A stretch of DNA of 50,385 bases from Bacteroidota bacterium (GTDB lineage Bacteria; Bacteroidota; Ignavibacteria; UBA10030; UBA8401). Positions 3 through 9,233 of this stretch are shown here, in pieces. The first letter of the stretch is position 1; every line of letters starts with the position of its first letter. The notes beneath the pieces were generated by a model. It was given only the letters and a program-made list of their open reading frames with translations, was not told where the DNA came from and made no database searches. A program made the position numbers and the translations under genes. The stretch is taken from the NCBI GenBank assembly GCA_027622375.1, contig JAQCAB010000011.1:1-50385 (forward strand), read 5' to 3'.

Positions 3-746
3 TTAACACCAACAGCAGCTGGAGCAGTAACAATAAATATTGCAGCAGGTACATTTACAGATGCAGCAGGAAATAATAATACAGCAGCAACACAATATAG
101 TTGGACATATGATAATGTATCACCAACAATTGCAATCACAGCAGCAACAAGTAGTGGAACAGCAGTTGCAAGTGGTAGCACAACTAACAATGCAACTTTA
201 ACTTTAACATTTACCGCAAGCGAAGCTACAACAGATTTTGTTGTTGAAGATATTACAGTATCAAATGGAGCGTTAAGTAGTTTTGCAGCAACAAGTTCTA
301 CAGTTTACACAGTTACTGTTGCTTCTGCCGGTGGTGGAAATAGATATTTTATTAATGGAGTTCAACAAGCCAGTCTAAGTTTTACTCGTGGTTCAACTTA
401 TACATTTGATCAATCGGCTGCCTCTAGCGGCAACCATCCATTATTGTTCTCAACCACGCAAGATGGAACTACTTATAGCACTGGAGTAACAACTTATGGA
501 ACACCAGGTTCTGCTGGTGCATACACACAAATTGTTGTTGATGCTAGCGCACCAAGCACTTTGTATTATAAGTGCGGTGTTCATGGCGGGATGGGTGGAT
601 CTATTTCGGTAACGGAACCAAATATTTACACAGCAACATTAACACCAACAGCAGCTGGAGCAGTGACAATAAATATTGCAGCAGGTATATTTACAGATGC
701 AGTAGGAAATAATAATACAGCAGCAACACAATATAGTTGGACATAT
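3..746 (+). repeat. Near-identical 108-bp direct repeat (3-110 and 639-746)
   Basis: Bases 3-110 and 639-746 differ at only about three positions and encode the same C-terminal half of an Ig-like domain, starting [16 protein letters not shown]. The spacing is 636 bp, a multiple of three. The left copy runs into the window edge, so more copies may lie upstream. Confidence 0.9.
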
Positions 747-3700
747 TCACCAGCAGCAGCACAACCAACAATCTCAAACCTATCGCCAACAAGTGGTGCA
801 ATTGGAACTACGGTTACAATTACAGGAAATAATTTTAGCACAACTGCCACAAATAATATTGTTTGGTTTGGTGGAGTAAAAGCAACAGTAACAACTGCAA
901 CTGCAACCAGTTTAAGTGTAACAGTACCAACCGGCGCAGGTAACCCGATTAGAGTTTTTGTGAATAGTTTAATGGCAGAAAGCCCAAAAAGTTTTAATGT
1001 AACTTTTACCGGTGGTGGAAGTATCACATCATCAAGCTTTGCAACTAAAGTAGATTTTGCAACTGGAGGTAGCCCAAATACTGTTTCCTTTGGAGATATA
1101 GATGGAGATGGTAAATTAGATATGGCTGTAGCGAATCAGGGTTCAAATACAGTTTCACTGTTTAGAAATATATCAACAAGTGGAAGTATAACAACAGGAA
1201 GTTTTGCAACAAAAGTAGATTTTGCAACTGGATCTAACCCAGAAGGTGTTTCACTTGGAGATATAGATGGAGATGGTAAATTAGATATGGTTGTAGCAAA
1301 TCGAGAAGAAAAGACAGTTTCGGTATTTAGAAATATATCAACAAGTGGAACTATAACAACAGGAAGTTTTGCAACAAAAGTAGATTTTGCAACTGGGACT
1401 AGACCGTATGGAATTTCACTTGGAGATTTGGATGGAGATGGTAAATTAGATTTGGCTGTAGCGAAGGCTGAATCCAATACAGCTTCAGTCTTTAGAAACA
1501 TATCAACAAGTGGAAGTATAACAACAGGAAGTTTTGCAACTAAAGTAGATTTTGCAACTGGAACTGGTCCAATCACTGTTTCAATTGGAGATATAGATGG
1601 AGATGGAAAGTTAGATATGGCTGTAGCGAATCCGAATTCAAGTACGATTTCAGTTTTAAGAAACATATCAACAAGTGGAACTATAACAACAGGAAGTTTT
1701 GCTGGCAAAGTAGATTTTGCAACTGGAAATCAGCCATATAGTGTTTCAATTGGAGATATAGATGGAGATGGTAAATTAGATATGGCTGTAGCGAATATTA
1801 ATTCAAATACAGTTTCGGTATTTAGAAATATATCAACAAGTGGAAGTATAACAACAGGAAGTTTTGCAACAAAAATAGATTTTGCAACTGGATCTAACCC
1901 ACAAAGTGTTTCACTTGGAGATATAGATGGAGATGGAAAGTTAGATATGGCTGTAGCGAATCCGAATTCAAGTACGATTTCAGTTTTAAGAAACATATCA
2001 ACAAGTGGAATTATAACAACAGGAAGTTTTGCAACAAAAGTAGATTTTGCAACTAGTAATACCGCATTTTTTGGTGAGATTGGAGATATAGATGGAGATG
2101 GAAAATTAGATTTGGCTGTAGTTAATTCGGGTTCAACAAATACAGTTTCAGTTTTTAGAAATGCAATTATATCACCACCAATCATTTCTCAATTCTATCC
2201 AACAATTGCAAAACAGAATGAAACAGTAAATATATTTGGTCAAAATTTTACTGGCGCAACTCAAGTTAAATTTGGTGGTACAAATGCGCAATCATTTGTT
2301 GTTACAAACGACACTTTAATAAAAGCAGTTGTTGGTATTGGAACTGCAGGTGAAATTTCTGTTACTACAAGTTTAGGCACTGCAAAAATAATGGGATTTT
2401 TAATGCCACCAATTACTCAAAATTACAGCTGGACTAAACTACCTGGCCCAACTGGTGCTGGGTGGTTTCATAAAATTTCGAATTTAGGTAACACTATTTA
2501 TGCGCAAACTCCTGATAATTTATTTAGAAGTGGTGATTTCGGAAATAATTGGTATCCAGTAAACTATCACGAATATGAAAACCCAAGAAATTTTCTAATT
2601 TTAGGTAATAAAATAATTTCAACATCAAGCACACAGGGTAGTATATTTTTCTCGTATGATGCAGGAGTAAATTGGATTAAAAAAAATATAAGTGGTGATT
2701 TGTACTTCCATAATATTGCAACAACATCAAGCAATACAACTATTTTAGGTTTGCAAGGAGAATTCTATTATGTATCAAGTGATACAGGAAATACTTGGGG
2801 AACAAAAAAGAATTCACCATCAGGTTATATTAATAATGTAGCATCGAATAGTAGATTAACATTGATGAGAACAAATGATGGAATTTACAAATCAACAGAT
2901 TTTGGTAATACTTTCGTAACTACAAATTTCCCATTTGGTGGTTGGGGTTCTATGTTGGAATCAATAAATGATAAATTTTATGCAAATGTTAATAATAAAT
3001 TATATATCTATAATGAAGCATTAAATAATTGGGAAGAAAAAAATAATAATTTTAATACTAATAATTTAACAGGTACTCAAGATGGTTCAAAGTTTTATTC
3101 ATACTTTGCAGATGGGCTTTATGAGTCAACAAATGATGGTGCAAGTTGGATAAAAGTTACAACAACGGGCACGATACCCAAAATTAATTCTTATGATGAA
3201 GTACGTGAGTTATTTTATTATAACTCAGATGTATATGTTGGAACACCATTAGGAATTTATAAATACTCGCTTAAAAACAATACATCCAATTTTGCTACAA
3301 ATGGAATAGCTGCTGGAATGCATGAAGCGCTTCATCATAATGGTACATCTTTATATGCAACAACATCTGGTGCTGGATTATTAAAATCAAATGATGGTGG
3401 AATTAATTGGAGTAGTGTGGTTTTAGGTTCTACTGATGATATTTATCCAAAACAAATTATTTCAAAAAATAATTCTATTTTTATTTTGGGTGGTGAATTA
3501 ACAATCTCAACAGATAATGGCAATAGTTGGCAAACTAAAACTAGCTTAGTTTCTACTAATTCATATAATGTCTCTATTGATACAAGCGGAAATAATTTAT
3601 ATGTATTTAAGGGTGATTCAACAATATTTAAATCAACAGATAATGGAAATACATTTACAAAATTACTCGGAGTAACATATCCAAATCAAAATCCAAAAAG

Positions 3701-6700
3701 GTTTGAAGTTGTAGGAAGCTCCATTTATTCAATGGTTTGGAATGAGCCATTACGAGTTTCAAAAGATGAAGGCAAAACCTGGCAAAAGATTTTAAATATT
3801 GGCACATCTTATAATGTAAGAGATGGCTTGTTTGAAAATGTATTAATAGTTGTTAGTACGGATAATAATGGAATTTATTTTTCAAAAGATGATGGAAACT
3901 CTTGGACAAAAAGTAATACCACAAATATAAATTCATTTGAAAGAATATTTAGAGTTAAAAATTTACTTATTGGTACAACTTGGGGACAAGTTTGGGTCTC
4001 GCAAGATAATGGTTTGAATTGGAATGATGTAACAGGAATTAAAAATTTTAATCATTATGCCAACTCATTAACATTTGATCAGACAAACATTTATCTAGCA
4101 ATAATTAATAATGGAATTTGGAAACGACCAATTTCAGAATTAACTGCACCAACCTCAACAATTACAGTTACTAAACCTAATGGTGGCGAAGATTGGAAAA
4201 TTTTAACTGGCGAAACAATTTCTTGGTCATCAACTATTTCTACAACTTTTCAAATTTATTACTCAACCAATAATGGTACAAATTGGGATTTAATTACGAC
4301 AACACCGACTGCAGCAACAGGAGGTACATATTTTTGGTCAATTCCAAATATTGCACCATCAACGCAAGCAAAAATTAAAATTGTAGATGCAAATAATGTT
4401 AATAATTTTGATATAAGCGATAATGTATTTACAATTTCACAAGTAGCTTCTCCTTCTTCAGGAATTGTAACTCAGTGGGATTTTAATCAGGGAAATAATA
4501 TTAGTCCGGCAGTTGGACAAGGAATTGCTTCTACAATTGGCGGAACAGCTGCCTCTATAATAGAGTCGGGAGTTTCATTTGGAAGTTTAACAGATGGACA
4601 AGCTTATTCATTAAATACTTTCCCAAATCAAGGAATAAATAATGGACAAGCAGGAGTAAAATTTACAGTAAGTACAGCAGGGCAAGAAAGTATCGGTGTT
4701 CATGTAGATTGGTATCCGAAATCAGGTTCACCAAATAAAATAAAATTTGAATACACAGCTGATGGAAATAGCTGGATGGAATTTGCAAATGTAACTGCAA
4801 ATAATACAAATTGGTTTGTAATAGATTATAAATTTGGGATTTCTCAAGGAGTAAATAACAATCCAAACTTTGGGATAAGAGCAGTTGCTGTTTTTGATGG
4901 TGCAAATTATACCGGTGTTTTGGGAACTTATAATCAAACTTCAGCTTGGAAATTTGATAATGTAACTATTTTTGGAAAGAGAGTTGGAGGTACTGGAGGA
5001 TTTGCAACAATAACTTCATTCACACCAACGCAGGGAAATGTAGGAACTCCTGTAACAATAAATGGAACAGGATTTAACAACGTTAGTCAAGTAAATTTTG
5101 CTGGAGATTTATCTGTTTCGCTCACTTCTACTTACGCAGCTAAAATAGTTAGCGTATCGGCATCAGGGGGTGATGTTGTTATTTATGGAAGAGATGACAA
5201 TAAAGTTGAAGTTTTTAGTCTATCTCAAAAAATAATTTTAAATTCATATCCAATTGCAACAGGGAATATTACAAGTGTTGTTTTGGCAAATGATGGAATG
5301 ACATTCATGGTTGGAAGAGATAATGGTTATGTAGCATATTATTCAACTTCAACGGGATTTATACGAGATGTATTTAGTATTGGTACTGGTTCACTAAAAG
5401 TTGTTGCACTTGCGACAGGTGGTTTCTCAACTAACCTCAAACTAGCAGTTGCCACAAGTAACTTTGATGTAAGAATTTTTGATATTTCAACAGGAACTTT
5501 TAGTAAATCAATTGGACTTCCATCAAAACCACTTTCAATTGATCTCTCGATGGATGGAGATATTCTAATTGTCGGAATGGAAAATAATAATATTCAATCT
5601 TATAACACAAATTTTAACTCATTAGAAAAAACTTTTAGTAACCATACTGCCAGTGTAAGTGCAGTTGCACTTAGTTGGGACAAACAATTTATTATTTCCG
5701 GAGGTAAAGATAAATCTGTTAAGATATGGAAATACAGCGATGGATCATTGATTAAAACATTAACGAATGCAAATTGGCAGGAAATTAAAAATGTAGGAAT
5801 ACTTATTAGTAACTCTGTTTTTTATTCAACAAACGGAAAGGAAATTACTTTCTGGGATTATCCAAGTGGAAATCAGAAGGGAAATTATTTTAATCATACA
5901 TTAGACATAACTTCTGCAACAAGATCATTTGACGGAAGAACAGTAATTACCGGTAGCGATGACAAAAATTTAAAATTCTTGCGTACAGGAGTTGATGCAG
6001 TATTTAATAGAAAGAGTGAAACAGAAATCAGTGCGACTGTTCCACAATATGCAAGCATAGGAAGGATTTGGATAAATTTACAAGGTGGACCACCTGTAAT
6101 TAGTAGTACAGATTTCGTGGTAAAAATAGTTCAACCAGCCCCAAATTTATTTTTACCATTAAATAATACAACTAATTTAATTTTACCAAGTACTTTCAGT
6201 TGGTCGAAGAATTTAAACTTTGATAAATATGAATTACAAGTTTTAGATACAATAACTGCAGTAACTCAGCAACTTTATGCAATAACTAGTGATACGTTTT
6301 ATACAGCAGTAGCTGGATCGTTTTTACAGAATAAAAAGTTTTGGTGGAAGGTTCGAGGAATAAAAGGAACTGATACTTCTGCATATTCAGAAGTTAGGAA
6401 CTTCACAACTAAGAAAATTTATAGTGGTCCACTTGTAAAGGTCTTATCAGTTGTATCAAAAATTCATTCGGGAAATATTAATATCAATTATCTATTAGAA
6501 GGAGATACTTCACATAAAGTTAATTTGCACTTCTATTATAGTGATACAAAAGGAATAAGCTGGAAAAAATTAACTGGATTAAATAAAACTTTAGTAAATA
6601 TCTCTCCAATTAAAAATCCAGTTACAGATACAGTAATTTGGAATTCTAGAATTGATGCTCCGCAAGTTGAAGGAGATAGCATATTTATTGGAACGAGAGT

Positions 6701-9233
6701 TACATTTGGAAGTGATACAAGTGACGGAGTCAGTTCAAATTTATTCTCACTTGATAACCGTGCACCAATATTTAGTGGAGTTACACAAGCAATTTCAGAT
6801 TCAAATGGTGGAAAAATATTAATTAAATGGAATAAAGCAGTTGAGAAATTTGGTCCGGTAACTTATTCGGTTTATGTAAATAAAGGAGACTCGACTAATT
6901 TGTATTCGGTTGCACCAGTTAATACAATTGATACAACTTATACAGCAATTGATCTTACAAACTTTAATGCATATTATTTTGCAGTAAGAGTAAAAGACAA
7001 TATTGGAAATAGTGATTCAAATAAAGTTATTAAAAAAGGAATTCCTGGAGGAACTGCGAAAATGATTAGTACTCTTGTAACAAATAATTTCAATAAGGAC
7101 TCAGTAAAGTTTTCATATAAAATTGATTTATTGGCACTTGATACAGCAAACTTAAAAGTTGAATTTTCAAAAGATAGTGGTTCAACTTGGACTGTAATGA
7201 AAAACATTGTTGGCAAAACAACTAACTTGGCAAAAGCAGATTCAGAAGCAACATTAATTTGGTTAAGTGGAAAAGAAATTCCAAATACTGAAACTGATAA
7301 AATGATTTTGAGAACTTCTATTACAGGATTAAATGGATTAGCATCTGCAAATCAGCTTTCACAATTATTTACAATTGATTTAAAAGCACCGGTATTTAAT
7401 GGAATAACAAGTGCAACACCGAATGCAAATGGAAGCGCAATAAATTTAAAATGGAATTCTGCAACTGATAAATTTGGTCCGATTACATATTCAGTTTATA
7501 TAAGTAAATCTGATTCAATAAATATTTACAATAAGACGCCAATAGAAATAACAGATACAACTTACAACGCAACTAACTTAGAAAATTTTGTACCATATTA
7601 TTTTGCAGTTCGTTCACGTGATTTATTAGCAAATAGAGATTCAAATAAAGTAATTTTAAAATCTGTTGCCGGAAAAGTTGTTGTAATGAAAACTGTATCA
7701 GTTCAGAAAAAATTTAATAAAGATACAGTTATATTTAATTATAATTATTCAGCTGCAATTGGAGATTCAGTTGGTACAACTTGGAATAAAGTAAATAGTA
7801 TTCAAGGCAAAATCTCTGGCCTCGCAGGTGCTGATTCATCAGCAAATTTAGTCTGGTTATGTGGTAAAGATGTAGGCCAAATTGAATCAAATAAAATGTT
7901 GTTAAGAGTTACTGCAACAGGATTAACAGGTAATAGTTTGCCTGTGGCATCGGATACATTTACAATTGATAAAAAAGGTCCAACATTTAGTGGATTGCAA
8001 GTTGTATTGAATAATTCAAAAAATATTTCTGGCTCTGCAATTTTATCATGGACACCTGCAACTGATATTTCGATGCCGATTACTTACAAAGTATTTAAGT
8101 CGGAAGTAAGTGGCAATTACAATTTTGCTACACCAGTTGCAACAACAACCTCTGATACAACTCTTGTAAAAAATTTACAAAAAGCAACTTTCTATTATTT
8201 TAATGTTTGGGCAATTGATGCTGCTGGTAATATTGATAGTAGTAAAGTTGAGAAAGTTTATTTAACAGAATTTTTGGGTGACTTTACTTATGACGGATAT
8301 ATAACTTTACAAGATCTCGCAATATTTGCACAAGCATGGAAAGCACGAGATACAAAAGTTGCAGATATCGGTCCAGTAACTGGAACAATTCCAAAAGTTA
8401 CCCCAACGTATGATGGAAAAATAAATATTGAAGATTTATCAATGTTCATTTTAATGTGGAACTGGGCATTTGATAATGGAAGAAGTGGTAATCAAGTAAT
8501 TGCTGGTTTAACTAAAAAACAAAATTCAGAAATTTCAAATTATCGTTTGAATGAAACAAATGAATTTATAATTAAACGTGGAGAAAAGAGAGCGATACCA
8601 TTTAAAGTATCTGGCTTAAAGAATATAGATGCGATAAGTTTATCATTAAAATTTGATCCTGAGTTTATAAAGATTGATTCAATTGTTCCAGGTTCAGTTT
8701 ATGGAAATAGAAAAAATATTTTACTCTTAAACAGAAGTAAAGAAGAAACTGGATTAGTTGATGCTGCAATAGCAAACTTTGGTGAAAATATAAATGGTGA
8801 AAATGAATCATCGCTTTTGATGGTTTATATAACTGCATTAAAACAAGTTCGCAATAAAACTGTAAATGGATTTATTCAAGCATTTGATATATCAAATAAT
8901 AATTCACTCGATGCAAAAGTTGAATTTAGTTTAAGTGACAGACCAAAAATACCGACAGAATTTACAATTTCACAAAATTATCCAAATCCATTTAATCCAA
9001 CTACAACAATAGAATTTCAATTAGCGGAACCCTCAATTGTAAAATTAAAAGTTTATGATCAACTTGGTCGCGAAGTTGAAGAGCTTGTAAACTCTGAAAA
9101 ATCAACAGGTTACCATACTATAAATTGGAATTCTAATCTTCCATCTGGTGTTTACTATTATATATTGCATTCGCAAGGCTTAAAGGGGAATAATTTGAGA
9201 AGTAAAGCGCGAAAAATGGTAATATTAAAATAA
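3..9233 (+). CDS. Giant multidomain T9SS-exported surface protein (5' end outside window)
   Basis: The frame is open from the left edge, so the N-terminus is missing and 3,076 residues are visible. Domains by visible residue: Ig-like (Big_12-type) 1-36 and again up to 250, with a cupredoxin-like insert at 114-205; IPT/TIG 255-336; seven FG-GAP/VCBS repeats with DIDGDGKLD calcium loops 345-723; IPT/TIG 724-801; an Asp-box/YCF48-like propeller with about 11 SxDxGxxW motifs 802-1381; a Kre9-like domain 1384-1480; a jelly-roll-like region 1487-1660; a third IPT/TIG 1668-2043 split by a WD40-like propeller 1703-1995; fibronectin-III-like modules 2044-2755; a dockerin-like EF-hand pair 2758-2830; a cohesin-like beta-sandwich 2855-2978; and a type IX sorting domain 2983-3076 with YPNPFNPTT. 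It is inferred to be exported and displayed at the surface, for adhesion or substrate binding. No catalytic domain is recognised and the ligand is unknown. Confidence 0.9.
1035..2171 (+). repeat. Seven-unit tandem array of 165-bp FG-GAP/VCBS coding repeats
   Basis: Units start at 1035, 1200, 1365, 1530, 1695, 1860 and 2025, each 165 bp (55 codons) up to the last. Every unit has the frame [11 protein letters not shown], then DIDGDGKLD, then FRNISTSG. About 90 bp in units 4 and 6 (from 1591 and from 1921) are essentially identical and lie 330 bp apart. The array keeps reading frame, so unit gain or loss would not break the gene. Each unit is expected to form one blade of a calcium-binding beta-propeller. 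Confidence 0.92.

Follow-up and report, generated by a model that had tools for sequence, protein, structure and literature searches.

A predicted cupredoxin-fold domain with a putative copper site lies within an Ig-like domain of a giant T9SS-type protein

Cupredoxins, including plastocyanin, amicyanin, rusticyanin, pseudoazurin and the N-terminal domain of Hyphomicrobium nitrite reductase, have a Greek-key β-fold and a His...Cys-x2-His-x2-Met order of residues, both of which are shared by a protein module encoded in the DNA described here. The Cys-x2-His-x2-Met spacing of the module is that of amicyanin. Unlike the cupredoxins, which are small carriers, the module is embedded in a giant surface protein, and elsewhere in phage tail proteins; moreover, it has no significant sequence match to any of them.

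The window, that is, the whole stretch of 50,385 nucleotides that was analysed (contig JAQCAB010000011.1 of Bacteroidota bacterium assembly GCA_027622375.1), corresponds to contig C12 in a genome assembly of 48 contigs that totals 1.73 Mb. The gene that carries the module is a 3076-residue ORF open at the contig start, so that the N-terminus of its product is cut off (Table 1). In addition to a preceding Big_12 Ig-like domain, represented by its C-terminal half (bases 1-110 and 637-746 are 97% identical), the protein contains, downstream of the module, a TIG domain and seven FG-GAP repeats, as well as domains of WD40-like and fn3 type and a stretch resembling a dockerin, and it has a T9SS type A tail. 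It had been called a T9SS protein from the sequence alone, and the C-terminal sorting domain (TIGR04183, 35.9 bits) bears this out, marking it as T9SS cargo; as read from its domain content, it is a putative secreted or surface adhesin. After the dockerin-like stretch (window 8277-8720; NF041540, 29.8 bits against a cut-off of 29), the protein has a further, weak match that is cohesin-like. An orthologue of the giant protein from the same genus (L125, G001:C43:158500-166057) shares 42-55% identity with it, and its contig, like the window, stops inside a repeat array, so that the N-terminus is absent in both species; because that contig ends within the FG-GAP repeats, the orthologue was unusable as an example of the empty state.

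Table 1. Features of the giant protein gene and of its nested module, in coordinates of the window.
Feature	Position	Strand	Remarks
Giant T9SS-type secreted protein	3..9233	+	3076 aa; 5' end cut by contig start
Preceding Big_12 Ig-like domain, C-terminal half	3..113	+	
Interrupted Big_12 Ig-like domain, N-terminal part	114..312	+	NVSPTIAI...SSTVYT
Left copy of TTTACACAG	304..312	+	Encodes V-Y-T-V
Predicted cupredoxin-fold module	313..624	+	313-633 is the 107-codon segment, the removal of which restores the Ig domain
Predicted copper ligand His (protein residue 145, module H45)	435..437	+	Codon CAT
Predicted ligand loop CGVHGGM	573..593	+	Cys 573, His 582, Met 591
Right copy of TTTACACAG	625..633	+	Encodes I-Y-T-A; start of resumed Ig domain
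Interrupted Big_12 domain, C-terminal part	625..746	+	Ends SWTY
IPT/TIG domain	765..1001	+	
FG-GAP repeats, seven	1032..2183	+	Probably one seven-bladed propeller
T9SS type A sorting domain	8979..9176	+	TIGR04183, 35.9 bits against a cut-off of 23

The segment that interrupts the Big_12 domain is 321 bases long, a multiple of three as originally noted, and the reading frame is unbroken across both of its borders. Matches to Pfam Big_12 (PF19078) flank it on both sides, the left-hand one covering profile positions 1-68 and the right-hand one 51-97; upon splicing out the segment, the two pieces (45.7 bits) give way to a single continuous match to profile positions 10-97, which scores 59.8 bits. 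The same Ig domain occurs without the insert on a marine viral contig (L104), where it is 48% identical to that of the window over 105 columns and unbroken in the junction region, and the DNA of this contig, in the region of the junction, is close to that of the spliced window. The rejoined profile match and the uninterrupted homologue thus support the nesting that the original prediction had proposed, and the latter argues against the segment being a normal part of the Ig-like domain. The viral ORF concerned (L104:2269-3687) has its uninterrupted Big_12 domain, which is similar to that of the window, followed by an apparent LamG-type domain, and tail-type genes adjoin it. The case for nesting rests on sequence, because a model of the whole nested domain is poor in the Ig part (pLDDT <50) and was not used for this purpose; MAFFT alignments mixing uninterrupted Ig domains with modules were misaligned and left out.

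The AlphaFold2 model of the module, calculated with 29 relatives, is of high confidence (pLDDT 95.5, pTM 0.86). In a Foldseek search of the PDB, the cupredoxin domain of nitrite reductase from Hyphomicrobium ranks at the top together with rusticyanin and plastocyanin, and Ig domains, amicyanin and CueO are mixed at lower ranks. By VIA-align, the best match is 2dv6 (Z 9.3, rmsd 3.5, 100 aligned), Synechococcus plastocyanin superposes with a Z of 6.8 (rmsd 3.1, 86 aligned) and the 50 entries listed are cupredoxin-superfamily proteins, as judged from their titles; independently predicted viral structures match the module at TM 0.94 and lower. The model and its best structural matches point to the Greek-key β-barrel of the cupredoxin superfamily, in agreement with the blue-copper-like fold foreseen from the sequence, and the segment is accordingly modelled as a self-contained cupredoxin-fold domain. 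At the level of sequence, no Pfam or NCBIfam family matches the module at threshold; Pfam Copper-bind (PF00127) has no match in it and matches three of the 29 relatives weakly (best E 0.022), and a PDB sequence search with the module returned chance-level matches only, such as pseudoazurin (E 0.53), aligned over the Cys-x2-His-x2-Met stretch.

The four predicted ligands are encoded exactly where they had been placed (CAT 435, TGC 573, CAT 582 and ATG 591, in frame 3-9233 of the forward strand), with the loop residues Cys, His and Met corresponding to protein residues 191, 194 and 197 (module C91, H94 and M97). In the model, strand 86-91 terminates in C91, the loop preceding strand 100-104 contains both H94 and M97, and strand 47-50 has H45 just ahead of it, a placement that fits the cupredoxin arrangement by secondary-structure position; together with their conservation, this puts the residues at the canonical strand and loop positions of type 1 ligands, as would be expected if they converge. 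All four are invariant in an alignment of 29 relatives, which were selected for that purpose; of the 102 distinct modules that a wider profile search returned, 91 have the complete set. Patterns containing the ligands served to retrieve part of the first locus set, and ligand-free patterns the genome locus set. The Cys is absent in nine of the 102, eight of which also miss other ligands, so that loss tends to be of the whole set; since four of these eight form one close viral group, loss events are fewer than the counts. The type 1 ligand set of the original prediction is thereby upheld, and copper binding by the module is predicted. A plain β-sandwich decoration, whose fold serves binding and whose ligand residues are a relic or a metal-free structural cluster, would account for relatives that are ligand-less and retain the family signature (with NGSM, NGTM, NSAM or YSNQ), but is rendered unlikely by the retention of all four residues in most distinct modules despite wide divergence elsewhere.

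A kinship with marine phage structural proteins, suggested at the outset, is substantiated by matches to PHROG profiles built from tail fibre and baseplate proteins of phages, the homology to tail proteins spanning the whole module (E 1.7e-20). Thirty-five phage records contain a match; they come from cyanophages, such as the cultured S-TIM5, pelagiphages and Methylophilales phages, and most of the proteins concerned are annotated as tail fibre, structural or hypothetical, others as baseplate. Viral contigs contribute another 56 loci. Four viral loci (L055, L057, L058 and L060) constitute a diverged branch that has lost all four ligands (YSNQ) and retains the family signature. Genomes account for 36 loci, including ones in Marine Group II archaea, marine Bacteroidota, single cells of Prochlorococcus, SAR86 and MAG contigs that may be viral. 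Collagen-like secreted proteins of Marine Group II archaea carry the module as their C-terminal end; those of rows L078, L081, L083-L090 and L093 end in SLGSVS or SLGSVA and form one clade with full support. Of the two modules in a SAR86 giant protein (L099), one has the four ligands complete and the other has kept only the Met (NSAM). Judged by sequence similarity, these modules make up an unnamed family found mainly in marine phage tail fibres and surface proteins of marine microbes, and their annotations have an extracellular location in common. A search of 59 further genomes of the window's order yielded no close kin of the module, and the Big_12 array was not found in the other genomes of the order that were searched; 395 genomes of the phylum gave seven other matches, all weak, the window's own genome has no second copy and plasmids gave no match. 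A first scan of genome contigs with a single protein returned no match, and the 29-row alignment was too divergent to serve as a scan seed.

Nesting recurs, with the module also placed inside DUF7507, Big_6/Big_13 and another Ig-like repeat. Once the module is removed, its flanks in L071, L072, L074 and L080 match uninterrupted repeats of the same protein with E values of 3e-75, 1e-71, 5e-54 and 7e-56, respectively. The host domain is DUF7507 in L071 and Big_6/Big_13 in L080 according to Pfam, each becoming one continuous match after removal; in L072 and L074 it is another Ig-like repeat, for which Big_13/Big_3_3 matches are weak and the case rests on paralogues. These examples come from independent assemblies, among which L071 is a chromosome record and L074 a contig of 1.06 Mb. 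Junction-spanning paralogues exist for 22 of 52 testable modules, a count that cannot separate nesting from placement between tandem repeats, and only nestings backed by Pfam or by clear paralogues are therefore claimed. As a tentative generalization, the module could be an insert domain for metal binding that has entered loops of unrelated Ig-like repeats several times, passing between tail fibres of phages and surface proteins of bacteria and archaea and endowing these fibres with a copper-dependent binding head.

The fold, the four-residue ligand set, the split Ig domain, its uninterrupted homologue, the phage kin and the recurrent nesting were all observed computationally, and the account that we consider probable is that of a cupredoxin-fold domain from an unnamed, mostly marine phage-tail and cell-surface family, which is lodged in a Big_12 domain of a T9SS adhesin, bears a predicted copper site, serves in binding or attachment and was acquired by recombination with foreign DNA. 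The module would bind one copper ion outside the cell in a type 1-like site, the metal mainly stabilizing the small domain, and by analogy with phage tail fibres it may act as an exposed side module for binding or attachment. An extracellular role in acquiring, buffering or detoxifying copper would suit both the conservation of the ligands as a unit and the surface display implied by the T9SS tail; one site per protein of more than 3000 residues would be a poor capacity, a scan of ten neighbouring proteins brought up no copper genes and phages would gain little, making this role improbable. Electron transfer, also envisaged by the original prediction, would have the surface copper site shuttle electrons like plastocyanin or rusticyanin, consistent with the complete type 1 set and with the structural resemblance to rusticyanin, plastocyanin and nitrite reductase domains. 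However, many members of the family occur in phage tail proteins, for which there is no electron-transport chain, an NCBIfam scan of ten neighbouring proteins revealed no obvious redox partner and the module sits among Ig, TIG, FG-GAP and WD40 repeats; this suggestion is unsupported, and because the family is common on virions, electron transfer is the least likely of the roles.

The module would have entered the Big_12 Ig-like domain in frame, at the loop that precedes its "YTATLTP" strand. The nine-base sequence TTTACACAG, reported at both borders, is indeed found there and has exactly two copies in the window (304-312 and 625-633), against a chance expectation of 0.53. Both copies encode [V/I]-Y-T-[V/A], that is, Y-T at a strand start, so that the repeat is weak evidence for an insertion mechanism; since related modules start with YTVTV, YAVTV or FAVTV, the left copy may partly be the module's own first strand. 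The repeat could represent microhomology at insertion. Transposition is unsupported, as the 312-base insert is too small for a transposase and shared Y-T codons partly explain the repeat; no terminal repeats were seen at the insert in a comparison covering direct repeats. Codon use within the module, as measured on about 100 codons, differs from that of the Ig flanks, with GCA making up 2 of 9 Ala codons compared to 34 of 39 (p = 0.0003) and ACA 4 of 15 Thr codons compared to 38 of 49 (p = 0.0005), which fits a recent foreign origin; GC3 is 21.6% in the module and 12.3% in the rest of the gene. An assembly chimera of viral DNA joined to the bacterial contig near its end, to which the position of the module 300 bases from that end and inside an Ig repeat array, its differing composition and the lack of a second copy in its own genome would lend themselves, is very improbable considering that the frame is intact over both borders, the Ig domain is restored exactly, the borders share only 9 bases, below the overlap that assemblers usually need, and like nesting is seen in the independent assemblies of L071 and L074. 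Under the favoured account of foreign recombination, the gene would have received the module from the marine tail and adhesin domain pool. In the tree, the row closest to the window's module belongs to a viral contig (68% identity), and no supported group holds the window's module, a result with which phage-to-cell and cell-to-cell transfer are both compatible.

Among described proteins, the modules of marine phage tails (PHROGs 30742, 677 and 27200) belong to the same family and have the conserved residues, most of them at about 40-65% identity, whereas that of the window resides in a bacterial T9SS adhesin and is nested in Big_12. Arcticimaribacter forsetii (L071), marine Bacteroidetes AAA795-G10 (L074) and Prochlorococcus AG-355-I20 (L080) have the same module within an Ig-like repeat of a giant protein, but their hosts are DUF7507, another Ig-like repeat and Big_6/Big_13, respectively. 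A conserved copper-type site nested in several kinds of Ig-like repeats was not found in the literature searched. Phage tail fibres and bacterial adhesins share a stock of β domains, to which a conserved copper-type site would also belong, and the copper dependence of marine phage adsorption or microbial attachment becomes testable. The host domain itself offers the most direct comparison, Big_12 being uninterrupted in the marine viral contig and split by 107 codons in the window.
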